From Allobosea vaviloviae (GTDB lineage Bacteria > Pseudomonadota > Alphaproteobacteria > Rhizobiales > Beijerinckiaceae), in NCBI RefSeq assembly GCF_001298265.1, contig NZ_LGSZ01000022.1:62001-126000 (forward strand): a stretch of 64,000 nt of DNA, given 5' to 3'. The translations under genes and the position numbers were made by a program. How positions within the stretch are numbered: the stretch's first letter is position 1; every line of letters starts with the position of its first letter. Under the pieces are notes generated by a model. It saw only the letters and a program-made list of their open reading frames with translations, was not told where the DNA came from and ran no database searches. Positions 1,231 through 20,434 of this stretch are shown here, one piece after another.

Positions 1231-3915
1231 TCAGCCTTTCGCGGCGGTCTTCGCCTTGGGCTTTGCCGCGGCCGTCTTGGGTTTCGCGACAGCTGCCTTG
1301 GGTTTCGCAGCAGCCTTGGCCTTTGCTGCGGCAGGCTTCTTCGCCGGCGCCTTGGCGGCTTTCGCCTTGCCCGGCCCCTTCACGCCGCTCGACTCCGCCT
1401 TGGCATTGACCAGCTCGACCGCCTGTTCGAGCGTGATCGCCTCCTGCGTCATCGCCTTGGGCAGGGTCGCGTTGACCTTGCCCCAGTTGACGTAAGGCCC
1501 GTATTTGCCGGCGCGCACCACGAGCTTGCCCCCACCGGGATGCTCTCCGAGATCACGGCCCGGCACGGCCGCGCCGCGTCCGAAGCGAGCGCCCGGACCG
1601 CCGCTCTCCTTGGCGACGATCAGGTCGATGGCGCGGTTGCCGCCGATCTGCAGGATGTCGTCGTCCTTGTCGATATTGGCGTAGGTCTTGCCGTGCTGGA
1701 CATAAGGCCCGTAGCGGCCGATGCCGGCGAGGATCGGCTCGCCGCTTTCGGGGTGCCTCGCGACCTCCTTGGGCAGCGACAGCAAGGCAAGCGCCGTTTC
1801 CAGATCGACGCTGCCCGGGCTCATGCCCTTGGGCAGGCTGGAGCGCTTGGGCTTCTCGCCCTCGCCGAGCTGGATATAGGGGCCGAAGCGCCCGTCGCGA
1901 ACCGTGACCTCGGCCTCCGTCACCGGATCCTTGCCGAGCACGCGAACGCCCGGCGCGCCGGTCCCGCCCTCAGTCGTGGCCTCGCCATCGGCAGCCTGGA
2001 CGGTGAGGGGGCGCGTGTAGCGGCATTCCGGATAATTCGAGCAGCCGACGAAAGCGCCGAACTTGCCGAGCTTCAGCGAGAGCTGGCCGGTGCCGCAGAC
2101 CTGGCAGGAGCGCGGATCGCTGCCATCCTCACGGGCCGGGAAGACATGGGCGCCGAGCACGCCGTTGAGCGCCTCCAGAACCTCGGTGACGCGCAGATCC
2201 TTGGTGTCGCCGATCGACTTGGTGAACTCCTCCCAGAATTCGCGCAGCAGCACCTTCCAGTCGATCTCGGCGTTCGAGACGCGGTCGAGCTTCTCTTCGA
2301 GGTTCGCCGTGAAGTCGAACTCGACATAGCGCTTGAAGAAGCTCTCCAGGAACGCCGTCACCAGCATGCCCTTGTCCTCGGGTACGAGGCGCTTCTTCTC
2401 GATGCGGACATATTCGCGGTCGCGCAGCGTCGAGAGCGTCGCGGCATAGGTCGAAGGCCGGCCGATGCCGAGCTCTTCCATGCGCTTGACGAGGCTCGCT
2501 TCCGAATAGCGCGGCGGCGGCTCGGTGAAGTGCTGGTCGGCGGCGATGGCACGCTTTTCGAGCGGCTCGCCATCCTTCATCGCCGGCAGCTTCTTGGAGT
2601 CCTCGTCCTCCTCGTCGTCGCGGCTCTCCTGGTACAGCGTCAGGAAGCCGTCGAAGAGCGTGACCTGGCCGGTGGCGCGCAGCTCGAGATCGCGGCCGGC
2701 GACCTTGGCGGCGATGTCGACCGTGGTGCGCTCCAGCGAGGCCGATTCCATCTGGCTGGCGATGGTGCGCTTCCAGATCAGCTCGTAGAGCTTGGCCTGC
2801 TCGGGTTCGAGATGGCGCATGACGGTCGCCGGCAGACGGCCGAGATCGGTCGGCCGGATCGCCTCATGGGCCTCCTGCGCGTTCTTGGCCTTGACGGTGT
2901 ATTTGCGCGGTACACCCGGCACATAGGCGTCGCCGAATTCCTTGCCGATGACGCTGCGCGCGGCGCTGATCGCCGAGGGGTCCATGTCGACGCCGTCGGT
3001 CCGCATATAGGTGATCAGGCCGACGGTCTCGCCGCCGATATCGACGCCCTCATAGAGCCGCTGCGCCAGCTGCATGGTTCGCGCAGGCGCCAGCCCGAGC
3101 TTGCGGGAGGCCTCCTGCTGCAGCGTCGAGGTCTGGAAGGGCGGCTGGGGGTGGCGCTTGACCGGCTTGGCCTCGACGCTGGCGACGCTGAAGGCCGCCG
3201 TATCGAGCGCCTCCTTGAAGGCCCTGGCCTCGTCGCCGCTGCCGATGTCGAGTCGTGTGATCTTCTTGCCGTCGGCGCCGACGAGGCGCGCATCGAAGAC
3301 GCCGCCTGCGGCCGTCGCCAGCGTCGCCACCAGAGACCAGTATTCGCGCGCCCGGAAGGCCTCGATCTCGCGCTCGCGGTCGCAGACGATGCGCAGCGCC
3401 ACCGATTGCACGCGGCCGGCCGAGCGGGCGCCGGGCAGCTTGCGCCAGAGCACCGGAGAGAGGGTGAAGCCGACGAGATAGTCCAGCGCCCGGCGTGCCA
3501 GATAGGCATCGACCAGCGCCTGGTCGACCTGGCGCGGATTGGCGAGCGCGGTCTGCACCGCGTCTTTGGTGACGGCGTTGAAGGTGACGCGCTCGACCGG
3601 GATGCCCTTCAGCGCCTTCTTGTTGTTGAGCGCCTCCAGCACATGCCAGGAGATCGCCTCGCCCTCGCGGTCGGGGTCGGTTGCGAGGATCAGCTTCTCG
3701 GCACCCTTCAGCGCCTTGACGATCTCGGCGACCTGCTTGGCGCCGCGCCCCTCGATCTCCCATTTCATCGCGAAGTCATGCTCGGGATCGACCGAGCCGT
3801 CCTTGGCCGGCAGGTCGCGGATATGCCCGAACGAGGCGATCACCTCGTAGTCGGATCCGAGATACTTGTTGATCGTCTTGGCCTTGGCCGGCGACTCGAC
3901 GACGAGGAGCTTCAT
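1231..3915 (-). CDS. topA: DNA topoisomerase I
   Basis: This type IA topoisomerase relaxes negative supercoils in the cytoplasm. The 894-residue protein starts with a Toprim domain (LLVVESPAKAKTI) that includes the DPDREGEA acidic motif near residue 80. The catalytic tyrosine is Tyr303 in TYMRTDG. A zinc-binding CQVCGTG...GCSNYPEC module lies near 600-630, followed by several topoisomerase C-terminal repeats (RFGPYIQ, RYGPYVQ, KYGPYVN). The last ~45 residues are an Ala/Lys/Pro tail, probably a nonspecific DNA-binding extension. In related genomes topA usually follows dprA; here pyrBC, plsY and dprA lie beyond it in the opposite orientation. Length fits alphaproteobacterial TopA. Confidence 0.97.
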   Translation of the reverse strand: MKLLVVESPAKAKTINKYLGSDYEVIASFGHIRDLPAKDGSVDPEHDFAMKWEIEGRGAKQVAEIVKALKGAEKLILATDPDREGEAISWHVLEALNNKKALKGIPVERVTFNAVTKDAVQTALANPRQVDQALVDAYLARRALDYLVGFTLSPVLWRKLPGARSAGRVQSVALRIVCDREREIEAFRAREYWSLVATLATAAGGVFDARLVGADGKKITRLDIGSGDEARAFKEALDTAAFSVASVEAKPVKRHPQPPFQTSTLQQEASRKLGLAPARTMQLAQRLYEGVDIGGETVGLITYMRTDGVDMDPSAISAARSVIGKEFGDAYVPGVPRKYTVKAKNAQEAHEAIRPTDLGRLPATVMRHLEPEQAKLYELIWKRTIASQMESASLERTTVDIAAKVAGRDLELRATGQVTLFDGFLTLYQESRDDEEDEDSKKLPAMKDGEPLEKRAIAADQHFTEPPPRYSEASLVKRMEELGIGRPSTYAATLSTLRDREYVRIEKKRLVPEDKGMLVTAFLESFFKRYVEFDFTANLEEKLDRVSNAEIDWKVLLREFWEEFTKSIGDTKDLRVTEVLEALNGVLGAHVFPAREDGSDPRSCQVCGTGQLSLKLGKFGAFVGCSNYPECRYTRPLTVQAADGEATTEGGTGAPGVRVLGKDPVTEAEVTVRDGRFGPYIQLGEGEKPKRSSLPKGMSPGSVDLETALALLSLPKEVARHPESGEPILAGIGRYGPYVQHGKTYANIDKDDDILQIGGNRAIDLIVAKESGGPGARFGRGAAVPGRDLGEHPGGGKLVVRAGKYGPYVNWGKVNATLPKAMTQEAITLEQAVELVNAKAESSGVKGPGKAKAAKAPAKKPAAAKAKAAAKPKAAVAKPKTAAAKPKAKTAAKG

Positions 3916-4165
3916 GGTGCGGTGTCTCGCTAATAGCCTCCTCGGAGCGCGAAATGCACCCTGAGGCGATCTCGCGACCGGCGAAAGACCCGGCGGTTCG
4001 GAATTGCGCGCGAAAGTGGTTCAGGGAATAGGCCGTGTCAAACGCCGATTGCATGTCGGCGGCCTGGGGCGGCCTTTTGGTCACAGTCCCCGCAGAGCGC
4101 CCTGACATGGCGCGTCGGCGGCCTCGGCACAAGGGTCACACGGCCGGCGCGATCCCAGCCGCCGC

Positions 4166-5296
4166 TCAGCCCAGCGCCTCATACAGCTTCGTCAGGAAGC
4201 CGTCGAAGGACGCGCCGTCGATCCAGCGCAGCACGGCGACGAGATCGGTCTTCGGATCGACCAGGATCACGTTGGTGCCGGCGCCCAGCGCCCAGAAGGC
4301 GCTCTCGGGCACGCCCGGCTTGGGCGAAGGCCCGCGGTTGAGCCACCAGAGATAGCCGTAGTTCGCCAGTGTCGGCGACGGCGAGACCATCTGCGCGATC
4401 CAGTCGAGCGCGATCAGGGAGCGTCCGCCCCAGTCTCCGCCACGCGCCATCAGCAGCCCGAAGCGGGCATGGTCGCGCGCCCCGATGAACAGCCCGCCGC
4501 CCCAATGCCCGCCGCCCGGCACCGACTGGATGCGCTGCCCGTCGATCTCGACGAAGGAAGTCTCGTAGCCCTGCCAGTCCCAATCGGTGGAGGCGCCGAT
4601 CGGGGCCATGATCCGCTCGCGCAGCACTTCCGGCAAAGGGCGGCGGAAGCGCTGCAGCAGGCAATAGCCGAGCAGGTTCACCCGCACATCGTTGTATTCG
4701 TAGAAGCTGCCGGGCTTGTGCATCTCGCGGCGCTGGCCCTTGCGGCTGTTGTCGGCACCGGGGCCGATCTGCCGGTTGTGATCGACCTGGTCGGATTTCC
4801 CGAAGATCTCGCCCCGCCATTCGCTGGATTGCTGCAGCAGGTGCCGCCAGGTGATCTGCGCGTTGTGATCGCCTTCGAAAAACGGACCGGCCACGCTCTT
4901 GGCCACCGGCTCGTCGAGATCGGCGATCAGACCATCCTGCACCGCAAGGCCAGCCAGCACGCAAAGATAGCTCTTGGCGATCGAGAAGGTCATGTCGGCG
5001 CGGTTGGTATCGCCCCATTCGGCGACGATCCTGCCGGCCTTGAGCACGAGCCCTGCTGGCCCGCCGCGTTCGCGCACAGACCCGACGATCTCGGTCCACG
5101 GCCCGCTCTCGTTCCATTCCCGATTCCCGACATAGCTGCCATCGGGGTAGAACAGGCTGCGCGGCCAGGGGCTGTCATGCGCCTCCGCGAAGGCCACGGC
5201 AGCGGCAAGCCGGGCCGGATCGAAGCCGGCTTCGACTGGGGCGATCGTGTTCCAGGTCGCTCCATGTGTGGCCGGGACAAAGGCGTCGGTGGACAA
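4166..5296 (-). CDS. Serine hydrolase, beta-lactamase/class C family
   Basis: This is a penicillin-binding/esterase-type serine hydrolase of 376 residues. The nucleophile motif is SIAK (Ser105-Lys108), the second motif YND lies in YEYNDVRVN near residue 207, and a GAGTN segment near the C-terminus replaces the KTG/HTG triad. No signal peptide is apparent, so it may be cytoplasmic; the substrate is unknown (6-aminohexanoate hydrolase-like esterases and EstB-type enzymes share the fold). I chose a TTG start because GAGGAG lies six bases upstream. An ATG 44 codons further out would add an Arg-rich stretch with no family support. It is divergent from pyrB. Confidence 0.82.
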   Translation of the reverse strand: MSTDAFVPATHGATWNTIAPVEAGFDPARLAAAVAFAEAHDSPWPRSLFYPDGSYVGNREWNESGPWTEIVGSVRERGGPAGLVLKAGRIVAEWGDTNRADMTFSIAKSYLCVLAGLAVQDGLIADLDEPVAKSVAGPFFEGDHNAQITWRHLLQQSSEWRGEIFGKSDQVDHNRQIGPGADNSRKGQRREMHKPGSFYEYNDVRVNLLGYCLLQRFRRPLPEVLRERIMAPIGASTDWDWQGYETSFVEIDGQRIQSVPGGGHWGGGLFIGARDHARFGLLMARGGDWGGRSLIALDWIAQMVSPSPTLANYGYLWWLNRGPSPKPGVPESAFWALGAGTNVILVDPKTDLVAVLRWIDGASFDGFLTKLYEALG

Positions 5297-5438
5297 GGCG
5301 TGCTCCTCGGCAGCGTTGCGTGAACGACTGCAGGCGTAGCGCCGTTTCACGCGCGCCGCCATCCGGCGAGCCGCATGGTGACAACGGAATCCGAACGCTT
5401 GCGCCGCGCCCGACTCGCGCCTAAACACCCCTCTTCAA

Positions 5439-6383
5439 ATGACATCGCCAGCTCCGCTCTATCCGCACCGGCATCTCCTCGGCATCGAGGGGCTCTCCCA
5501 TTTGGACATCGAGGCGCTGCTGGACAGGGCCGACGCCTATGTCGCGCTCTCCCGGCAGGTCGAGAAAAAGACGGCCACCTTGCGCGGCCGCACCCAGATC
5601 AACCTGTTTTTCGAGCCCTCGACGCGGACGCAGGCCTCCTTCGAGCTCGCCGGCAAGCGGCTCGGCGCCGACGTCATGAACATGTCGGTCGCCTCCTCCT
5701 CGGTGAAGAAGGGCGAGACGCTGATCGACACCGCGGCGACGCTGAACGCGATGCGGCCGGACATCATTGTGGTGCGTCACCATGCGGCCGGAGCGGTGAA
5801 CCTGCTCGCGCGCAAGGTCGGCTGCTCGGTGGTGAATGCCGGCGACGGCGCCCATGAGCACCCGACGCAGGCGCTGCTGGACGCCCTGACGATCCGCCGC
5901 AACAAGGGCCGCATCGCCGGGCTGACGGTGGCGATCTGCGGCGACATCCTGCATTCGCGCGTGGCCCGCTCCAACATCATCCTGCTGAACGCTCTCGGAG
6001 CGAAGGTGCGCCTGATCGCGCCCTCGACCCTGCTGCCGGCCGGCATCGAGCGCATGGGCGTCGAGATCTTCACCGACATGAACAAGGGGCTGGACGGCGC
6101 CGACATCGTGATGATGCTGCGCCTCCAGCTCGAGCGCATGCATGGCGCCTTCGTACCGTCCTCGAAGGAATACTTCCGCTATTATGGGCTCGACCGCGAC
6201 AAGCTTGAGCGCGCGCAGGCCGACGCGCTTGTGATGCATCCCGGCCCGATGAATCGCGGCGTCGAAATCTCCTCGGAGGTTGCCGATGGCGCCCAGTCGC
6301 TGATCCGCGAGCAGGTCGAGATGGGCGTCGCGGTCCGCATGGCGGTGCTCGACGCGCTGGCGCAGCACCTCCCCAATGTCTGA
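5439..6383 (+). CDS. pyrB: Aspartate carbamoyltransferase catalytic subunit
   Basis: This enzyme condenses carbamoyl phosphate and L-aspartate to N-carbamoyl-aspartate, the committed step of de novo pyrimidine synthesis. The 314-residue protein shows the carbamoyl-phosphate loop STRTQASFE (Ser61-Thr64), the mobile-loop region around SSVKKGET, and HPTQALLD at 141-148. It ends with the typical VLDALAQ helix. It lies directly before the dihydroorotase-like gene. No pyrI regulatory subunit is present, consistent with an ATCase that partners with a dihydroorotase homologue. Confidence 0.97.
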
Positions 6384-6408
6384 GCCGAGAGCGCGAACGG
6401 AACCGGGC

Positions 6409-7713
6409 ATGGCCGAGCTTCAGGACATCGCGATCGTCAATGCGCGTCTCGTCGACCCGGCCACGGGCCGCGACGAGCGGGGCTCATTGCTGCTGCGCGG
6501 CGGCACCATCGCCTCGGTTGGCTGGGGCGAGGCTGCTCCTGCGACGGGAGAGGGTGTCCGCCGCATCGACGCGAGCGGGCTCGTCGTGGCGCCTGGCCTT
6601 GTCGATCTGCGTGCCTTTCTCGGCGAGCCCGGGGCCGAGTTCCGCGAGACGCTGGGCTCCGGCTCGCAGGCGGCGGCTGCCGGCGGCGTCACCACCATCG
6701 TCTGCCGGCCCGACACCGATCCGCCGATCGACGATCCCGCGATCATCGACTTCATCAAGCGCCGCGCCCGCGACAAGGCGATCGTCAACGTGCTGCCCTG
6801 CGCCGCCCTGACAAAGGGCCTGCACGGCAAGGAGATCACCGAATTCGGCCTGCTGCTGGAGGCCGGCGCGGTCGCCTTCGGGGATGGCGCGAAGGCCCTG
6901 CGCAACCCGCAGATCATGCGTCGCGCCCTGATCTATGCCCGCGACTTCGACGCCCTGATCATGAATCATGTCGAGGATCCCGACCTGCGCGGCTCCGGCG
7001 TCATGAACGAAGGCGAGTTCGCCAGCCGCAAAGGCCTGCCCGGCATTCCGCGCGAGGCCGAGACGGTGATGCTGGAGCGCGACATCCGTCTCGCCCGGGC
7101 GACAGGCGGGCGCTACCACGCCGCCATGATCTCGTGTTCCGACTCGGTCGAGCTCGTGCGCCGGGCGAAGGCCGAGGGTCTACGCGTCACCTGCGGCGCC
7201 TCGATCAACAATCTGACGCTGAACGAGAACGACGTTGGCGACTACCGCACCTTCTGCAAGGTCTCGCCGCCGCTGCGCGACGAGCAGGAGCGGCTGGCGC
7301 TGGTCGCGGCGCTGGCGGAGGGGGTGATCGACGTCGTCGTCTCCGACCACGACCCGCAGGACGTCGAGACCAAGCGCCAGCCCTTCGCCGAGGCCGCCGA
7401 TGGCGCGCTGGGCATCGAAACCCTGCTGTCCGCCTCGCTGCGCATGGTCCAGGCCGGCCAGATCGCCTTGCCTGACCTGCTGGCGGCGCTCTCGACGCGG
7501 CCCGCCAAACTCCTCGGGCTCGGCTGCGGCCGGCTCGCCCCCGGCGCACCGGCCGACCTCATGCTGCTCGACCTCGACGCTCCCTACGTCGTCGACAAGC
7601 GCAAGCTGAAGTCGCGGGCCAAGAACTCGCCCTTCGACGAGGCGCGGCTGGAGGGCATCGTGCAGACCACCTTCGTCGGTGGCCGTGCGGTTTATGAGAT
7701 GCGCACCGGCTGA
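6409..7713 (+). CDS. pyrC: Dihydroorotase-like protein (PyrC'), probably non-catalytic partner of PyrB
   Basis: It belongs to the amidohydrolase/dihydroorotase family (434 residues) and has the family frame: VDLR after the first strands, GGVTT, and VSDHDPQ near the C-terminus. The metal-binding H-x-H expected after VDxR is replaced by RAFLGEPG, and the histidine expected in the 'H-x-S' strand is replaced by ISCSDS. Only IMNHVEDP and SDHD keep likely ligands. Known PyrC' proteins (for example in Pseudomonas) are inactive but needed for ATCase assembly, which fits the adjacency to pyrB. Many automatic annotations would call it active pyrC. An in-frame ATG 33 bases upstream overlaps the pyrB stop; I prefer the inner ATG, where the protein aligns with homologues (MAELQDIAIVNARL). 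Confidence 0.85.
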   Translation: MAELQDIAIVNARLVDPATGRDERGSLLLRGGTIASVGWGEAAPATGEGVRRIDASGLVVAPGLVDLRAFLGEPGAEFRETLGSGSQAAAAGGVTTIVCRPDTDPPIDDPAIIDFIKRRARDKAIVNVLPCAALTKGLHGKEITEFGLLLEAGAVAFGDGAKALRNPQIMRRALIYARDFDALIMNHVEDPDLRGSGVMNEGEFASRKGLPGIPREAETVMLERDIRLARATGGRYHAAMISCSDSVELVRRAKAEGLRVTCGASINNLTLNENDVGDYRTFCKVSPPLRDEQERLALVAALAEGVIDVVVSDHDPQDVETKRQPFAEAADGALGIETLLSASLRMVQAGQIALPDLLAALSTRPAKLLGLGCGRLAPGAPADLMLLDLDAPYVVDKRKLKSRAKNSPFDEARLEGIVQTTFVGGRAVYEMRTG

Positions 7714-13116: not shown

Positions 13117-14109
13117 TCAGCCCTGCGGCTTGACGCCGGCTGCTGCCAGCGATGCGGCCCATTTGTCCACTTCGGCGGCAAATGCCTTGGCATGCGCTTC
13201 GCGGGTCCATTCGGCCTCCGGGAAGGTGCTGGTGCCGAAGGCCTTGAACTTCTCGACCACGGCCGGATCCTTGAGCGCGACCCGCAGTGCCGCGTTCAGC
13301 TTGTCGAGCACGGGCACAGGCGTGCCCTTCGGCGCGTAGAGGCCATGCCAGATCGTCATGTCGAGCTTGGCGCCGGCTTCCGCCATGGTTAGCGTGTCGG
13401 GCAGCACGTCGAGCCGCTGCGCCGAGGTCACCGCATAGGCGCGGATGCTCTTGCCCTGGATTTGCGGAATCGCCGAGGTCGACTGGTCGCAGAGGATGTC
13501 GATCTGCCCGCCGACGAGGTCGTTCATCGCCGGGCCGGTGCCGCGATAGGCGACCTGGTTGAACTTGGCCCCGAGCTGCTGCGACATCAGCACGGCACAG
13601 AGATGCGAGTTCGAGCCGACGCCGGCATGGGCGACCGTCAGCTTGTCGGCGTTCTCCTTGATATAGGGGAAGAAGGATTTCGCATCCTGCGCCGGCAAGC
13701 CGAGCTTGCCGGCGATGACCATCGGACCCGTATTGACCAGCCCGATCGGCGCGAAGGCCGTCTTGGTGTCGTAGCCGAGATTGGCGTAAAGCGCGGGGGC
13801 GGCCGCCAGCGCGAGATGATGGATCAGGATCGTATGCCCATCGGGGTCGGCTGCGGCGAGGCGCTTGGCGCCGGCCGTTCCGCCGGCCCCGGCGACGTTC
13901 TCGACCACGACTGGCTGGCCGAGCGTCTTGCTCATCTGCTCGCCCAGCAGGCGGGCGATCACGTCGCTCGGCCCGCCCGCGGCGAACGACACGATCACCG
14001 TGATCGGCTTGGTCGGAAAGGCCTGCGCCTGCGCTGGCGCCGTCAGGTTCGATGCGGACAGGCCTAGTGTCAGCAACCCGGCAAGGGCTGCCCTTTTGGT
14101 CATGCTCAT
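13117..14109 (-). CDS. Bug-family tripartite tricarboxylate transporter binding protein (SlcH-like)
   Basis: This is a periplasmic solute receptor of 330 residues. A Sec signal ends near APAQAQA (about residue 28), and the TctC/Bug signature [18 protein letters not shown] follows. Later strands include [14 protein letters not shown] and the 'G-x-ID-x-LCD' segment. The start is supported by AGGAGG seven bases upstream. It lies 76 bases downstream of the GntR regulator on the same strand, so the two may be co-transcribed, divergent from suyAB. I infer a role in capture of sulfolactate or a related organic acid. No TctA or TctB membrane subunit is in the window, so the receptor is an orphan. Confidence 0.9.
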
Positions 14110-14185
14110 GCGTATCCTCCTTGGGTCGTGGTGAACGGCCGCTCTGTGTCGGCTTTGGTGGGTAAGTTCTCAGACCTCGAACGTA

Positions 14186-14950
14186 TCAGCGCAAATCTGA
14201 CTGGTAGTGAGCCTCCTCGGTCAGACACAGGCTGAGACGTCGCTCGACGGCGGACCCGTCGAGCGATAGCGCGATGCGGTCGATCTCGAGCGCGGGCGTT
14301 CCCGCCGCGACACGCAAATGCTCGGCCTGATCGGGCGTGAGCGCAACGGCTTTCAGCCGCTCGCGGGCGTTGGCGATGGTGATGCCGTAGCGCGTGGCGA
14401 ACAGGCTGTAGAGATTGTTCGGAACCGGGCCGTTTTCCAGCCCCGGAAAGACATGGGCAGGCAGGCTGACGGTCTCGAGGACCAGCGGCTTGCCGCCGAG
14501 CGAACGGATGCGGCGGATGCGGATGACCGCCTCCTGCGCCTGCAGGTTCAGCGCCGTGCGCTCTGCTGCGTCGGCGGGGCCGCAGGTGCCGTCGAGAACC
14601 TTGCTGTCGGGAAAGCGCGCGATGCCGTCATCGGACATCAGCTTGAAGAACCGGAACAGGATGCGCTGCTCGTCATGCTCCGCGACGAAGGTGCCGCGCC
14701 CCTGGCGGCGCACCAGCAGGTTTTCCGCGGCGAGTTCGTCCAGCGCTTTCCTGACCGTGCCCTGGCTGACGCCGATCTCGCTGGCCAGCTGGCTTTCGCT
14801 CGGCAGTGCCATGCCGGGCGCCCAGCTGCCATCGACGAGTCGGCGCACGAAATTCGCCTTGACCTGCTGGTAGAGCGGCCGAAACCCAAGAATTTCGGCG
14901 CCGGCGGGCCCATCCGGCCGCATCGCAATTTCGACCTTGTGCTCAGTCAT
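14186..14950 (-). CDS. GntR/HutC-type transcriptional regulator of the sulfolactate cluster
   Basis: This is a 254-residue repressor-type protein. An N-terminal winged helix (about residues 22-90) carries the GntR signature PSESQLASEIGVSQGTVRKA and VRRQGRGTFVA. The C-terminal half is a UbiC-like ligand-binding domain of the HutC subfamily (PLVLETVSLP, with RIRSLGG before it). It is divergent from suyA, and a perfect palindrome lies three bases from its start codon, so it probably regulates itself and the suy operon with a sulfonated acid as ligand. This ligand is inferred from context only. Confidence 0.9.
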   Translation of the reverse strand: MTEHKVEIAMRPDGPAGAEILGFRPLYQQVKANFVRRLVDGSWAPGMALPSESQLASEIGVSQGTVRKALDELAAENLLVRRQGRGTFVAEHDEQRILFRFFKLMSDDGIARFPDSKVLDGTCGPADAAERTALNLQAQEAVIRIRRIRSLGGKPLVLETVSLPAHVFPGLENGPVPNNLYSLFATRYGITIANARERLKAVALTPDQAEHLRVAAGTPALEIDRIALSLDGSAVERRLSLCLTEEAHYQSDLR

Positions 14951-14952
14951 GT

Positions 14953-14966
14953 GTCTTATATAAGAC
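14953..14966. promoter_or_regulatory. Perfect 14-bp palindromic operator, probable GntR site
   Basis: GTCTTATATAAGAC is a perfect inverted repeat immediately before the start codon of the GntR regulator and 90 bases upstream of suyA. It is AT-rich against the surrounding DNA. Its size and symmetry suit a GntR dimer and its position would allow control of both divergent transcripts. Confidence 0.7.
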
Positions 14967-15055
14967 TTGTCCGAGAGCTGGTCGAGTCCTGAATCAGGGC
15001 GGCCTGCCCAGAACGGCAAGAACGCTGTGACAAGAAGCGCTGTGAGGAGACACCG

Positions 15056-15343
15056 ATGAGCAAGCCCCACCTCCTGGTTCACGAGAAGAAGGACACCGTC
15101 GGCGTCGTCGTCGTCGAGGGTTTGAAGGCCGGCACCGACATGCTGTGCGTGGTCACGCACGACAATTCCGATTTCCACCTGACCGCGAAGATGGACATCC
15201 CGATCGGCCACAAGGTCGCGCTCAAGGACATCGCCAAGGGCGAGACGATCTGGAAATACGGCCAGGACATCGGCCAGGCCAAGGCCGATGTGAAGCAGGG
15301 CGAGCACCTGCACGTCCACAACGCCAAGACCAAGCGCTGGTGA
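15056..15343 (+). CDS. suyA: (2R)-sulfolactate sulfo-lyase small subunit (UxaA N-terminal/SAF domain)
   Basis: This is a 95-residue protein made of a single SAF domain, the small subunit of the UxaA/GarD dehydratase superfamily. Segments FLVHEK-like [42 protein letters not shown] and the C-terminal [10 protein letters not shown] are seen. UxaA of Escherichia coli is a single long chain, whereas sulfolactate sulfo-lyase is split into SuyA and SuyB as here. Together with SuyB it is expected to cleave (R)-3-sulfolactate to pyruvate and sulfite in the cytoplasm. Alternative: altronate or another sugar-acid dehydratase small subunit. The neighbouring dehydrogenases and exporter favour sulfolactate. 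Confidence 0.82.
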
Positions 15344-15428
15344 GCGCGGCTCTGTCGATTCCCAACTGATCTCAACCAGAACGGGCTCCCGGCAAGGTCG
15401 AGCCCGCCAGGCACAAGAGGAAACACCC

Positions 15429-16709
15429 ATGTCCATCGTCGCGAATTTCGATCTCGTCAAAGGGACGCTCGAGGATTTCAAGGGCCGGCAGATCGAGGCC
15501 CCGGCGTTCAAGGCGCCCATGGTCAAGCGCCCGACCGGCCCCAGCCTCGACTCCTTCATGGGCTGGCGTCGTGAGAACGGCCGCGTCGGTGTGCGCAACC
15601 ATGTCCTGCTGCTGCCGCTCGACGATCTCTCCAACGCCGCCTGCGAGGCCGTCGCCAACAACGTCAAGGGCACGCTCGCGATCCCCCATGCCTATGGCCG
15701 CCTGCAGTTCGGCGAGGACCTGGAGATCCATTTCCGTACCCTGATCGGCACGGGCTCGAACCCCAACGTCGCCGCCGTCGTGGTCATCGGCATCGAGGAT
15801 GGCTGGACCAAGCGCGTCGTCGACGGCATCGCCAAGACCGGCAAGCCTGTCGTCGGCTTCGGGATCGAGGGCCATGGCGACATCGCCACCATCGCCAAGG
15901 CCTCCTATGTCGCCAAGGAGTTCGTGCAGTGGGCGACCGAGCTGCAGCGCGAGACCTGCGGCATCGAGGAGCTCTGGGTCTCCACGAAATGCGGCGAATC
16001 CGACACCACCACGGGCCTGTCCTCCTGCCCGACGGTCGGCAACATGTACGACAAGTGGATCCCGCGCGGCGTCTACGGCGTCTTCGGCGAGACCTCCGAG
16101 ATCACCGGCGCCGAGCATCTCTGCAAGGCCCGCGCGGCGACGCCCGAGGTCGGCGAGCGCTGGTACAAGATGTGGAAGGCCTATCAGGACGACGTCATCG
16201 AGGCCCACAAGACCGACGACCTCTCGGATTCGCAGCCGACCAAGGGCAACATCGCCGGCGGCCTGACCACGATCGAGGAAAAGGCGCTCGGCAATCTCGA
16301 GAAGATCGGCCGCGAGTGCAAATACATCGACATCCTCGAGCCGGCACAGGCACCGACCAAGGGCCCGGGCCTCTACTACATGGACACCTCCTCGGCTGCT
16401 GCCGAATGCGTCACCCTGATGGCGGCGGGCGGCTATGTCGTGCACACCTTCCCGACCGGGCAGGGCAACGTCATCGGCAACCCGATCGTCCCCGTGATCA
16501 AGATCACCGGCAACCCCAAGACGATGCGGACCATGCCGGAGCATATCGACGTCGACGTTTCCGGCATCCTGCGCCGCGACATGACGATCCCGCAGGCCGG
16601 CGACGCGCTGATCGAGAACATCGTGCGCACCGCCAATGGCCGGCTGACTGCGGCGGAAGCATTGGGGCACCGCGAATTCTCGATGACCAAGCTCTACCGC
16701 TCGGCCTGA
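15429..16709 (+). CDS. suyB: (2R)-sulfolactate sulfo-lyase large subunit (UxaA family)
   Basis: This is the 426-residue catalytic subunit of a UxaA-family lyase. It shows [70 protein letters not shown] (Cys ligands), and [18 protein letters not shown] near residue 350. The NVKGT[13 protein letters not shown] segment is what I recall from SuyB rather than UxaA or GarD; this is recollection, not a search. It follows suyA after 85 bases and starts an operon with the exporter, slcC and comC. The product would be pyruvate plus sulfite. No sulfite dehydrogenase is present in the window, so sulfite oxidation must be encoded elsewhere or sulfite is exported. Confidence 0.83.
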
Positions 16710-16795
16710 GCCGCTGCTAACAGCCGGGGCGGCGGCGTTTGCCGCTCCGGCCTTTTCAAATCCGCCCCGGCCAGAACCTCGGGAGCCTGCAAGCC

Positions 16796-17860
16796 TTGTC
16801 CATCGCGACGACCACCCGCCTCAGTGCCTGGCGTCCGCTCCTCGACGGGATCGCGCTGTCGGCAGCGGTCGCGGTCGCGGCCTACATCGCGGAACCGCTG
16901 GTAAAATCCGCCGCCGGCGGGCGTTTCGGCATTCCTGCCGTGGTCATCGCCCTGATCATCGGCATGCTGCTGCATCCCGTCGCCAACGCGCCCCGCTTCC
17001 AGGCGGGCATGACCTTCTGCGTCAAGAAGATGCTGCGCTGGGCAATCGCGCTGCTTGGCCTGCGCGTCGCGCTCGGTGACATCATCGCGCTCGGAGCGAC
17101 CACGGCGCTGCTCGTCATCGTTGCAATGGCGGCCACGATCCTCTCGGGCTTCCTGCTGGCGCGCTGGCTCGGCCGCGAGACCGGCATGGGCGCGCTCGGC
17201 GGCGTCGCGACCGCCGTCTGCGGCGCCTCCGCAGCACTCGCGACAGCCACGGTGGTGCCCGACTACAGGAGCAAGGCCGCCGACGTCGCCTTCACCGTCA
17301 TCGCCATGAACGCGCTCTCGACGCTGGCGATGCTGGCCTATCCGCTGATCTGCGTCTGGCTCGGCTTCACGCCCGCCCAGACCGGCATCATGCTCGGCGC
17401 CACCATCCATGACGTGGCGCAGGTCGTCGGCGCCGGCCAGTCGGTCTCAGTCGAGGCGGCGAATGCCGCGATCATCGTCAAGCTGTTCCGCGTCTTCCTG
17501 CTGCTGCCGGCCGTGCTGATCGTCGGCTGGTGGCTCGTCCACGACGATGCGAAGCGCGCCGGCCATGTCGCAGAGAAGGCCAAGGTGCCGGTCCCCGTCT
17601 TCGCGATCATGTTCCTGGTGCTGTGCCTTGTGAACAGCGTGCTCGCCATGCAGCCGGCCCTGGCCGACATCTATCCGCCGGTCCGTGCGCTGCTGCTGTC
17701 AATCTCGACATGGGGCCTTCTCATCGCCATCGCCGCGCTCGGGCTCGGCACCTCGCTTGGCGCCATGGCCCGGCTCGGCTGGCGCCATATGGTCCTTGTC
17801 ACGGGCACGAGCCTCGTCATTCTCGTCATCGTCGCGGGCGGCCTGATCGTTCTGGGCTGA
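16796..17860 (+). CDS. YeiH-type (UPF0324) putative sulfate/sulfite exporter
   Basis: This is an integral membrane protein of 354 residues with about ten hydrophobic helices. YeiH/UPF0324 signatures include VALVIGM-like PAVVIALIIGMLL, LRWAIALLGLRVALGD, GGVATAVCGASAALATA, and GATIHDVAQVVGAG. Members of this family occur as putative sulfate or sulfite exporters in organosulfonate degradation operons, and its position between suyB and slcC fits export of the sulfur released by SuyAB. No ATG is available before the first helix. I chose TTG with GGGAG upstream; another TTG lies 57 bases earlier. Confidence 0.85.
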   Translation: MSIATTTRLSAWRPLLDGIALSAAVAVAAYIAEPLVKSAAGGRFGIPAVVIALIIGMLLHPVANAPRFQAGMTFCVKKMLRWAIALLGLRVALGDIIALGATTALLVIVAMAATILSGFLLARWLGRETGMGALGGVATAVCGASAALATATVVPDYRSKAADVAFTVIAMNALSTLAMLAYPLICVWLGFTPAQTGIMLGATIHDVAQVVGAGQSVSVEAANAAIIVKLFRVFLLLPAVLIVGWWLVHDDAKRAGHVAEKAKVPVPVFAIMFLVLCLVNSVLAMQPALADIYPPVRALLLSISTWGLLIAIAALGLGTSLGAMARLGWRHMVLVTGTSLVILVIVAGGLIVLG

Positions 17861-17886
17861 CCGTCAAAATCTGGAAGGCGCAAGCC

Positions 17887-18816
17887 ATGACCGACATCGT
17901 CATCACCGAGTTCATGGACGAGGCGGCCGTTGCTGCGCTGAGCGCCCGCTACAAGGTCCATCACGACCCCGAGCTCTTCGGCAAGACCGATGAACTGGCC
18001 AGGCTCGTCGCTGATGTCCCGGCCCTGATCGTGCGCAATCAGACGCAGGTGAGGGGGGATGTGCTCGCCGCCGCGAAGACGCTGAAGGTGGTCGGCCGTC
18101 TCGGGGTCGGCCTCGACAACATCGACATGGATGTCTGCACTGCGCGCGGCATCAAGGTCTTCCCTGCGACGGGAGCCAACAGCCTCTCGGTCGTCGAATA
18201 CGTCATCGGCAGCGCCATGGTGCTGCTGCGCGGCGCCTATTTCGCCAATGCCGCGATGGTGGCGGGGGAATTTCCCAAGACGAAGCTGATCGGCCGTGAG
18301 ATCGCCGGCAAGCGGCTCGGCCTCATCGGCTTCGGTGCCATCGCCCGCGATGCCGCCGCCCATGGCCGCATGCTGGGCATGACCACCGTCGCTTACGATC
18401 CTTACGTCCCTGCCGCCGACAAGGCCTGGGCCGGGACGGAACGGCTCGACCTCGACACCGTGCTCTCGACCTCCGATGTCATCAGCATCCATCTGCCGCT
18501 GACGCCGGAGACCAAGGGCCTGATCGGCAAGGACGCCTTCGCCAAAATGAAGCCCGACGCGATCCTGATCAACGCGGCGCGCGGCGGCATCATGAACGAG
18601 GAGGCGCTGGTCGCGGCCCTGACATCAGGCAAGCTCGGTGGCGCGGCGATCGACGTCTTCGCGCAGGAGCCCTTGCGCGAGGCCGGCAAGCTGTTCGCCG
18701 ACGTCCCCAATCTGATCCTGACGCCCCACATCGCCGGCAACACGGTCGAGTCCAACGGCCGCGTCTCCGGCTTGGTCGCCGAGCGCGTCATGGCGGCGCT
18801 GGAGGGCAGGGCATGA
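17887..18816 (+). CDS. slcC: (S)-sulfolactate dehydrogenase, D-2-hydroxyacid dehydrogenase family
   Basis: This is a 309-residue NAD-dependent D-isomer-specific 2-hydroxyacid dehydrogenase. The dinucleotide-binding motif is GFGAIA (148-153), and the catalytic triad is Arg232 (NAARGG), Glu261 (AQEP) and His281 (TPHIAGNT). A phosphoglycerate dehydrogenase-like architecture without a C-terminal ACT domain is evident. In the known sulfolactate pathway SlcC oxidises (S)-3-sulfolactate to 3-sulfopyruvate. The comC start overlaps its stop by 4 bases (ATGA), so translation is probably coupled, and the pair together acts as a two-step 'racemase'. Substrate assignment is from context. Confidence 0.85.
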   Translation: MTDIVITEFMDEAAVAALSARYKVHHDPELFGKTDELARLVADVPALIVRNQTQVRGDVLAAAKTLKVVGRLGVGLDNIDMDVCTARGIKVFPATGANSLSVVEYVIGSAMVLLRGAYFANAAMVAGEFPKTKLIGREIAGKRLGLIGFGAIARDAAAHGRMLGMTTVAYDPYVPAADKAWAGTERLDLDTVLSTSDVISIHLPLTPETKGLIGKDAFAKMKPDAILINAARGGIMNEEALVAALTSGKLGGAAIDVFAQEPLREAGKLFADVPNLILTPHIAGNTVESNGRVSGLVAERVMAALEGRA

Positions 18817-19793
18817 CACGGCTGTCCATCGAGCAGGCTGAAGGTCGCCTGACCGAGATCTTCGCCGAAGCGGGCGCCTCGCCCGCCAACGCGGCCTCCG
18901 TCGCCTGGGCTTTGGTGATGGCGGAAGCGGACGGCTTGAAGGGCCACGGCCTGTCGCGGGTGCCGACCTATCTCGCCATGCTCAGATCCGGCAAGATCGA
19001 CGGTCAGGCGGTTCCGATCGAAAGCCGCCCGAAGCCCGGCGTTCTGGCGATCGACGCCTGCCACGGCTTCGCCTATCCCGCCATCGACCTTGCCGTGATC
19101 GAACTGCCGGATATGACCCGCGCGCAGGGCGTGGTCGCCTGCCCGATCCGCCGGTCGAGCCATTGCGGCGCCGCCGGCTTGCATGTCGAGCGGCTGGCGC
19201 AGCAAGGCCTCGTCGCCATGCTCTTCGCCAACACCCCTGGCGCCATCGCCCCCTGGGGCGGCTCGAAGCCTGTCTTCGGCACGAACCCGATCGCCTTTGC
19301 CGCCCCGCTCGCCGGCCGCGAGCCTGTCGTCATCGACATGGCGCTGTCGAAGGTCGCGCGCGGCCCGATCGTCGCGGCCAGGCAGAAGGGCGAAGCGATT
19401 CCCGAGGGCTGGGCGCTCGACGTCCACGGCAAGCCGACGACCGATGCGGCCGCCGCGCTCGCCGGCACCATGGTCCCGCTCGGCGACGCCAAGGGCGCGA
19501 CGCTGGCGATGATGGTCGAGATCCTTGCGGCGGCGCTGGTCGGCGCGCATTTCGGCTTCCAAGCCTCGTCCTTCATCGATGCCGTGGGCGGGCCGCCCGA
19601 CACGGGCCAGCTCATCCTCGCCATCGACCCGCACGCCATGGGCGGCAACTGGTTCGACGAGCGTATGCGCGTCCTCACTCACGCCATCGAGGCGCAGGAG
19701 GGAACCAGGTTGCCGGGCGTCAGGCGGCTGGCGTTGCGGGCGAAGGCGAGGGCGGAAGGGATCGAGGTGGGTGAGGAGCTATTGGCACTCTGA
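18813..19793 (+). CDS. comC: (R)-sulfolactate dehydrogenase, malate/L-lactate dehydrogenase family
   Basis: This is a 326-residue oxidoreductase of the LDH2/MDG2 (YlbC/ComC) family, which has its own NAD(P)-binding fold. It shows GHGLSRVPTYL (His45), the catalytic His117 in SSHCGAAG, ANTPGAIAPWGG, GTNPIAFAAP and a C-terminal GGNWFDERM. In methanogens ComC acts in coenzyme M synthesis and in bacteria it reduces 3-sulfopyruvate to (R)-3-sulfolactate, the SuyAB substrate. Last gene of the operon, it converges on parE with only five bases between. A generic malate/ureidoglycolate dehydrogenase is the alternative if context is ignored. Confidence 0.85.
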   Translation: MTRLSIEQAEGRLTEIFAEAGASPANAASVAWALVMAEADGLKGHGLSRVPTYLAMLRSGKIDGQAVPIESRPKPGVLAIDACHGFAYPAIDLAVIELPDMTRAQGVVACPIRRSSHCGAAGLHVERLAQQGLVAMLFANTPGAIAPWGGSKPVFGTNPIAFAAPLAGREPVVIDMALSKVARGPIVAARQKGEAIPEGWALDVHGKPTTDAAAALAGTMVPLGDAKGATLAMMVEILAAALVGAHFGFQASSFIDAVGGPPDTGQLILAIDPHAMGGNWFDERMRVLTHAIEAQEGTRLPGVRRLALRAKARAEGIEVGEELLAL

Positions 19794-19798
19794 GCGTG

Positions 19799-20116
19799 TC
19801 AGAAGGTGCCTTGATCGAAGGCTCCCTTCAGATCGCGGCCACCATAGAGGATACGCATGATCACGATTTGCTGCGCATCGATCCGAAACGCGATCGTCAC
19901 TCGGCGCTCAACTTCGAACGTTCGCAAGCCAGGGTAGAGATCATCACGTCGCGTGCCGCGCTCCGGAAAGAAGGCGAGCGACCGGTAGCTCCGTTGGATG
20001 CGCCGGATGTAGCCAATCGCAGTATGTGCGCTGCCTCTCTCCGCAATCCAGTCATAGATTTCGCGGAGATCCTCGCGCGCGGCAGGCCTCAGCGTGATCT
20101 CAAAGCCTGGCGGCAT
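19799..20116 (-). CDS. parE: ParE/RelE-family toxin
   Basis: A 105-residue protein with the ParE fold: ITLRPAAREDLREIYDWIAERG helix pair, then LAFFPERGTRRDDLYPGLR and a C-terminal strand pair (VERRVTIAFRI, IVIMRILYGGRD). ParE toxins inhibit DNA gyrase. Its first 17 bases overlap the end of the antitoxin gene, the usual arrangement of type II modules, so translation is coupled. Autoregulation by the ParD-ParE complex is expected. Confidence 0.9.
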   Translation of the reverse strand: MPPGFEITLRPAAREDLREIYDWIAERGSAHTAIGYIRRIQRSYRSLAFFPERGTRRDDLYPGLRTFEVERRVTIAFRIDAQQIVIMRILYGGRDLKGAFDQGTF

Positions 20117-20378
20117 CGCGAGCCATGCGCTGCCTGTGATGCTTCTCCAGTTCCTCGAAAACCTGTTCAGCGGGGATTGACGGCCGCGGGTCAGCCATAG
20201 CCTCCTCGACCTTCGCCTTCAATTCGGCGTCGAAAGCACGTTCCTCGCGTGCCAGTGCTTCCAGCCCGGCACGCACGACCTCGCTAGGCGAGTCATATTC
20301 GCCGGAGCGGACGCGCTCCTCGACCTTTTCGGCGAGATCGCCGAGCGTCACCGTCAGTGTCGTGTTCGGATCATCCAT
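20100..20378 (-). CDS. parD: ParD-family antitoxin (ribbon-helix-helix)
   Basis: This is a 92-residue antitoxin. Its N-terminal ribbon-helix-helix (TTLTVTLGDLAEKVEERVRSG-like, residues ~5-50) has the ParD/CopG pattern DSPSEVVRAGLEALARE. A charged helical C-terminus wraps the toxin. GGAGG lies eight bases before the ATG. Frame overlap with parE is 17 bases. The module sits between comC and ade with no mobile-element remnants. Confidence 0.9.
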   Translation of the reverse strand: MDDPNTTLTVTLGDLAEKVEERVRSGEYDSPSEVVRAGLEALAREERAFDAELKAKVEEAMADPRPSIPAEQVFEELEKHHRQRMARDAARL

Positions 20379-20434
20379 CGCGAACCTCCATAGGCGAGGC
20401 TCAAAATGTAACACGGGTCTCGCAGCCGGGACAG

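Follow-up and report, generated by a model that had tools for sequence, protein, structure and literature searches.

Sulfolactate pathways and the locus

3-Sulfolactate is a product of the breakdown of sulfoquinovose, 2,3-dihydroxypropane-1-sulfonate (DHPS) and cysteate. We analyzed a seven-gene locus of Allobosea vaviloviae, at positions 13117–19793 of a 64,000-nucleotide stretch (the window, on contig 25 of a 5.6-Mb genome), which, by analogy with characterised relatives, probably enables cleavage of sulfolactate to pyruvate and sulfite. In described systems this task falls to the sulfo-lyase SuyAB and the dehydrogenases SlcC and ComC (PMC12421959, PMC11382572, PMC6278857; all papers cited here are represented by excerpts, to which the statements drawn from them are limited). 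The Desulfovibrio DF1 enzyme is reported to depend on Fe2+ when it releases sulfite and pyruvate from sulfolactate (PMC6278857), and full SlcHFG is cited for Chromohalobacter salexigens and Roseovarius nubinhibens (PMC5812351).

The window locus consists of two divergent units. The rightward unit carries suyA, suyB, a YeiH-type exporter gene, slcC and comC in that order, and the leftward unit a GntR/UTRA regulator gene followed by a Bug/TctC receptor gene. An earlier note on this DNA had described these seven genes as a complete sulfolactate degradation cluster. Their order, sizes and strands are borne out by the open reading frames (ORFs), Pfam gives each the family named there, and the divergent regulator and receptor genes are indeed both present on the minus strand, upstream of suyA. 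The word "complete" goes too far, because the membrane subunits of a transporter are absent beside the receptor. Gene content, gene order, clade membership and a conserved palindrome are the observations reported below. Taken together, they make an enzyme chain of SuyAB, SlcC and ComC for 3-sulfolactate breakdown highly probable, while uptake of sulfolactate itself from outside is favored with considerably less assurance.

Identity of the predicted sulfo-lyase

The large catalytic subunit, a 426-residue GD_AH protein, is encoded by suyB (15429–16709, plus strand) and was assigned by its PF04295 and PF20629 domains, its position in a tree and its residues. Directly upstream lies suyA (15056–15343, plus strand), which encodes a separate 95-residue SAF-domain small subunit (PF08666, 23 bits against 21). 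This split is not in itself diagnostic of SuyAB, because some non-Suy UxaA proteins also have separate small and large subunits.

In a 50-row tree, the window protein and 28 others formed a SuyB-like clade with 100/100 support, separate from the 21 remaining rows; 53 rows had been gathered, and three (L114, L101 and L118) were removed because the matched stretch contained a stop. Among the members of the clade are the proteins of Sinorhizobium mexicanum, a species named as a holder of SlcC, ComC, SuyA and SuyB homologues (PMC12421959), and of Cupriavidus pinatubonensis strain HN-2, in which the genes are arranged like the hpsRNOUPsuyAB cluster of strain JMP134 (PMC11382572). The UxaA and GarD proteins of E. 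coli fall outside the clade, as does the fused paralogue encoded elsewhere in the A. vaviloviae genome. The earlier note had proposed a phylogeny to see whether the large subunit groups with UxaA or GarD; run here, it places the protein in a clade of its own together with the C. pinatubonensis protein from an hpsNOP-suyAB locus, in agreement with the SuyAB assignment. A warning from the tree program concerned long branches that meet, among them those of a Variovorax protein and the UxaA group at their junction with the SuyB side; in this single tree, with those branches kept in, it touches the order of the outgroups more than the SuyB clade.

The identity values show a corresponding gap. SuyB is 99% identical to proteins of Bosea sp. 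AAP35 and of a Hyphomicrobiales metagenome-assembled genome (MAG) and 69% identical to the HN-2 protein, and SuyA shares 67% identity with its counterpart in Paracoccus versutus and 52% with that of C. pinatubonensis. Across the phylum, 16 of 398 genomes carried a protein of at least 67% identity (one partial; own genome included), the next among the matches listed reaching at most 37%. Within the family, 28 of 99 genomes reached at least 82% (again with one partial match and the own genome included) and the remainder at most 38%, and among 316 matching plasmid records 13 reached at least 60%, followed by 39%.

Profile models are less discriminating. In the Pfam and NCBIfam scan SuyB matched galactarate/altronate dehydratase models alone, and none of the window proteins hit a SuyA or SuyB model in the NCBIfam release that was scanned. 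Against the GarD equivalog TIGR03248 SuyB scored 130 bits, with a cut-off of 730.85, while E. coli GarD scored 941 bits. The only PDB relative found by sequence was the GarD structure 6u7l (4e-36). Of the 13 SuyB-like plasmid records (at least 60% identity), nine bear the name "UxaA family hydrolase", one is called "D-galactarate dehydratase" and three are unlabelled. The earlier note spoke of a mislabelled cluster, although the window comes without annotation; its expectation about automatic labels is partly right, but the name it expected, "altronate dehydratase", appears on none of these records.

Thirty-nine positions invariant across the 29 SuyB rows occur in at most two of the 21 other rows, and among them R91, E190 and Q345 stand out because they sit in motifs that are otherwise kept. 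Position 91 is Cys in 20 of the 21 non-Suy rows and Arg in the Variovorax protein alone. At position 190, within CGESD, 20 rows have Gly, one has Ser and none has Glu; at position 345, within TGQG, Arg is found in 18, Ala in two, Val in one and Gln in none. These three residues may bind the sulfonate or alter the leaving group.

The two predicted sulfolactate dehydrogenases

The slcC gene (17887–18816, plus strand; its start is most likely the ATG at 17887) encodes a predicted (S)-sulfolactate dehydrogenase, a D-2-hydroxyacid dehydrogenase resembling phosphoglycerate dehydrogenase (PGDH) with PF00389 and PF02826 domains. The start of comC (18813–19793, plus strand), encoding a predicted (R)-sulfolactate dehydrogenase of the Ldh_2 family (PF02615, 323 bits), overlaps the end of slcC by 4 bases, and one further Ldh_2 protein is encoded in the genome. 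Both dehydrogenases are of the types claimed in the earlier note, with modest clade support in the case of ComC, and they accompany suyAB in most relatives examined.

By its scores, SlcC is PGDH-like and distinct from SerA: it reached 294 bits against TIGR01327, under the cut-off of 454, while the genome's own SerA, located elsewhere, reached 671. This agrees with the SERA-like placement of the C. salexigens SlcC (PMC6303947). In a tree, 22 of 23 cluster-linked SlcC rows formed one clade (95/88) apart from the own and the E. coli SerA; two of the 25 rows had no usable SlcC (no match in L093, too short a piece in L116). The best NCBIfam match of ComC, at a score under the cut-off, is NF040650, L-sulfolactate dehydrogenase.

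Conservation of the gene neighborhood

Neighborhoods were counted at the best 80 of 442 confirmed SuyB loci, which are the closest relatives and, judging by record titles, belong mostly to Hyphomicrobiales. SuyA lay directly upstream of SuyB in all 80, SlcC was nearby in 72, ComC in 74 and both in 71. A YeiH protein of at least 50% identity was found within 6 kb in 47 loci, a divergent upstream Bug receptor of at least 45% identity in 41, and a GntR gene within 6 kb in 73, being divergent and upstream in 49. All seven genes in the layout of the window were present in 34 of the 80 loci, so the arrangement is not due to chance. Some neighbors are missing because loci are cut at contig ends; in the 59 loci with ample flanks, both dehydrogenases were found in 56 and the full layout in 31. 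Methylobacterium oryzae carries a variant with a TauE-type exporter and a dicarboxylate symporter beside suyAB, slcC and comC.

The lyase occurs in all four genus members examined and in 28 of the 99 family genomes (own included). The system is a known one, ordinary in Bosea and its kin. A literature search that covered little of the subscription literature found no study of a Bosea sulfolactate cluster, and PMC10413263, in the part available, brings up sulfolactate solely in connection with TauE/SafE exporters. Microcystis bloom aggregates yielded MAGs of Bosea, Phreatobacter and Methylobacterium; the suyAB transcripts there came almost only from phototrophic bacteria, and Bosea is not tied to them by name (PMC11089705).

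Regulator and candidate operator

The regulator gene (14950–14186, minus strand) encodes a GntR-family protein of the HutC/UTRA type (PF00392 and PF07702), a candidate repressor of the operon; the ORF listed for it up to 15673 is an over-long frame. Immediately before its start, and about 90 bases before suyA, lies the perfect palindrome GTCTTATATAAGAC (14953–14966), a candidate operator marked out by its conservation upstream of suyA. It is the sole match in the window at up to two mismatches (expected number, 0.00). A scan for promoters and terminators found nothing above chance.

In the 400 bp ahead of suyA, 78 of the 80 loci (all except L044 and L068) have a site with at most two mismatches. 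Of 86 sites with no more than one mismatch across 1.50 Mb of DNA, 78 fall in this interval. Two of the eight sites elsewhere (in L048 and L070) precede a GntR match. One-mismatch copies at L047:2637 and L071:1732 lie several kb from suyA and possibly mark other regulon members. Conservation of the palindrome among close Bosea partly mirrors recent ancestry. Sites with at most two mismatches turned up at nine of 20 additional SuyB loci, most of which are more distant, namely at those of P. versutus (L090), S. mexicanum (L091) and M. oryzae (L094) and loci L103, L104, L105, L108, L109 and L115. The Variovorax locus, scanned as a 21st and not a SuyB locus, has no such site.

The motif type is already known, since PMC4494728 prints an SdhR motif that has the same 14 bases as its core. 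The literature search, with its limited reach into subscription journals, found no link between this operator and suyAB. Judged from these patterns, the chances are evenly balanced that the palindrome is the operator of a HutC-type sulfolactate repressor for the suyAB regulons of Hyphomicrobiales, reaching some Paracoccus and Sinorhizobium, and that R91, E190 and Q345 turned a sugar-acid dehydratase into a C–S lyase. The proposal is weakened by the presence of the site in just nine of the 20 further loci. If it is true, a sulfolactate-use regulon could be read straight from genomes via GTCTTATATAAGAC. A residue signature together with an operator motif would help to separate SuyB from the many "UxaA family hydrolases" of the databases.

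Candidate genes for uptake, export and sulfite oxidation

The Bug/TctC-type receptor gene (14109–13117, minus strand; PF03401, 192 bits) probably shares one transcript with the regulator gene. A profile search found no TctA on the same contig. The genome has 21 TctC-type and six TctA matches, with no TctA inside 5 kb for 15 of the 21 TctC-type genes. The idea of a TctAB pair dedicated to this receptor was rejected, as no TctA is without a TctC of its own; TctB was not searched for.

The exporter gene (16739–17860, plus strand, TTG start) encodes a predicted sulfite or sulfate exporter. It belongs to the SuyZ/YeiH family, in line with the YeiH-type exporter of the earlier note, and scored 224 bits against PF03601 (cut-off 24.5). 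It is the sole PF03601 match in the genome and lies close to suyAB; the role of SuyZ is taken from PMC11582611. Sulfite oxidation is probably handled elsewhere in the genome, where, among five PF00174 matches, one shares 54% identity over 235 residues with part of the P. versutus sulfite oxidase, whose gene lies about 8 kb downstream of suyB in that species.

Beyond the operon, a gene for a ParE-type toxin (PF05016) and one for a PaaA2/ParD-like antitoxin lie at 19799–20414 on the minus strand, convergent to comC; the toxin gene ends six bases past the end of comC.

Proposed pathway and its alternatives

Characterised relatives suggest the following reactions, dehydrogenase directions, export and induction. 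The Bug protein would capture the substrate in the periplasm, uptake being the weakest step, with no membrane subunits alongside. SlcC would oxidise (S)-sulfolactate to sulfopyruvate and ComC would reduce sulfopyruvate to (R)-sulfolactate, the two working as a racemase, and SuyAB, as an Fe2+-dependent lyase, would cleave (R)-sulfolactate to yield pyruvate and sulfite. Export of this sulfite, or of sulfate once it is oxidised, would then fall to the YeiH-type protein. The GntR/HutC regulator would repress both divergent units from the palindromic operator between them until released by an effector, probably sulfolactate.

Several results weigh against this pathway or parts of it. The HN-2 protein, at 69% identity, is the sole aligned SuyB row tied to a characterised pathway, and the comparisons did not include the Paracoccus pantotrophus and C. 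salexigens proteins or an assayed SlcC or ComC. In the best tree the SlcC rows, 23 in number, do not form a single clade, as that of Rhodococcus jostii falls outside, and they come together in only 6% of bootstrap trees. All 20 cluster-linked ComC rows form one clade, with support of just 85/76 and after five of the 25 rows were dropped as truncated, and ComC scored 187 bits against NF040650, below the curated cut-off of 500; two ComC-type proteins from other suyAB loci likewise fell below it (200 and 164 bits). Against the narrower TIGR00698 the exporter scored 124 bits, under the cut-off of 232.6. The receptor is an orphan, since each of the six TctA matches of the genome has a different TctC no more than about 2 kb away. 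No operator-like site with up to two mismatches was found at 11 of the 20 further SuyB loci, including those of C. pinatubonensis, SC52 and Rhodococcus. Finally, layout alone does not fix the substrate, because a Variovorax cluster sets two dehydrogenases, GntR and Bug beside a non-SuyB large subunit.

The alternative that survives best, although we regard it as rather unlikely, keeps the same enzymes and makes sulfolactate an internal intermediate only, the substrate being cysteate, DHPS or a sulfosugar and the Bug protein binding that compound or something else. Precedents exist in C. pinatubonensis, where suyAB follows hpsNOP for DHPS (PMC11382572), and in Paracoccus wurundjeri, where it completes sulfofucose breakdown (PMC12421959), and the SlcC/ComC pair suits an (S)-sulfolactate source. 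Yet the genome holds no close HpsN, its best match being 39% identical and presumably a histidinol dehydrogenase, and the DHPS route via HpsN was rejected. The operon has no further sulfonate gene (the cysteate and sulfosugar routes were searched partly at most), and the combination of SlcC and ComC with a tripartite tricarboxylate transporter (TTT) receptor resembles the sulfolactate clusters of C. salexigens (PMC5812351). An Xsc route was likewise discarded, with no genome match above the cut-off (best 276 of 676 bits). TIGR01275, a model related to 1-aminocyclopropane-1-carboxylate (ACC) deaminase and used for cysteate sulfo-lyase, was matched below its cut-off (235 of 289 bits).

Far less probable is a sister activity, in which a SuyAB-like lyase acts on a different 2-hydroxyacid, as may be the case for the look-alike cluster at 1732–7286 of Variovorax sp. 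PBL-E5 plasmid 3 (L097). Its large subunit, 39% identical, is the nearest outgroup (98/93) and shares R91, and the cluster brings GntR, hydroxyacid dehydrogenase, split UxaA, Bug and Ldh genes together in one place. The window protein, however, is a member of the SuyB clade and carries both E190 and Q345, residues absent in Variovorax, and no exporter is annotated within the 9 kb of Variovorax examined. Another UxaA-family grouping was seen on a plasmid of the haloarchaeon Haladaptatus salinisoli (L101), where positions 4061–6683 encode two large and one small protein in a row, with a mandelate-racemase-family gene nearby.

The least probable reading, an altronate/galactarate-type sugar-acid dehydratase in an operon for hexuronate-derived acids, draws on the family models and on GarD as the sole solved relative found by sequence, and is contradicted by the tree that sets SuyB apart from UxaA and GarD, by the GarD equivalog score (130 bits against 731, with 941 for E. 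coli GarD) and by the differences at residues 91, 190 and 345; moreover, an exporter and two 2-hydroxyacid dehydrogenases would seem ill-suited to a hexuronate path, and the genome carries the separate fused paralogue.

Comparison with known systems

UxaA and GarD share the Pfam domains of SuyB, E. coli UxaA being 30% identical to it, but both carry Cys at 91, Gly at 190 and Arg at 345 and are one fused chain in E. coli. The hpsRNOUP-suyAB cluster of C. pinatubonensis has similar lyase subunits (52% for SuyA and 69% for SuyB), whereas its substrate is DHPS, processed through HpsNOP (PMC11382572), and no SlcC or ComC match was found in the 19 kb examined there.

Plasmid pTAV3 of P. versutus has a divergent GntR gene, suyA, suyB and a YeiH-type exporter gene in the same order as the window, along with an operator-like site with two mismatches; in P. 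pantotrophus this exporter is called SuyZ. Unlike the window, the 19 kb of P. versutus examined contain no SlcC or ComC, and the genes downstream encode pyruvate carboxylase, transhydrogenase and sulfite oxidase.

The suyAB-slcC-comC clusters of C. salexigens and P. wurundjeri share with the window a split SuyAB, SlcC, ComC and the racemase logic of two dehydrogenases. They differ from it in transport: the single orphan Bug receptor of the window stands against the full SlcHFG cited for C. salexigens (PMC5812351), and its YeiH-type exporter lies inside the operon, whereas in P. wurundjeri a TauE homologue is encoded in a different cluster (PMC12421959).

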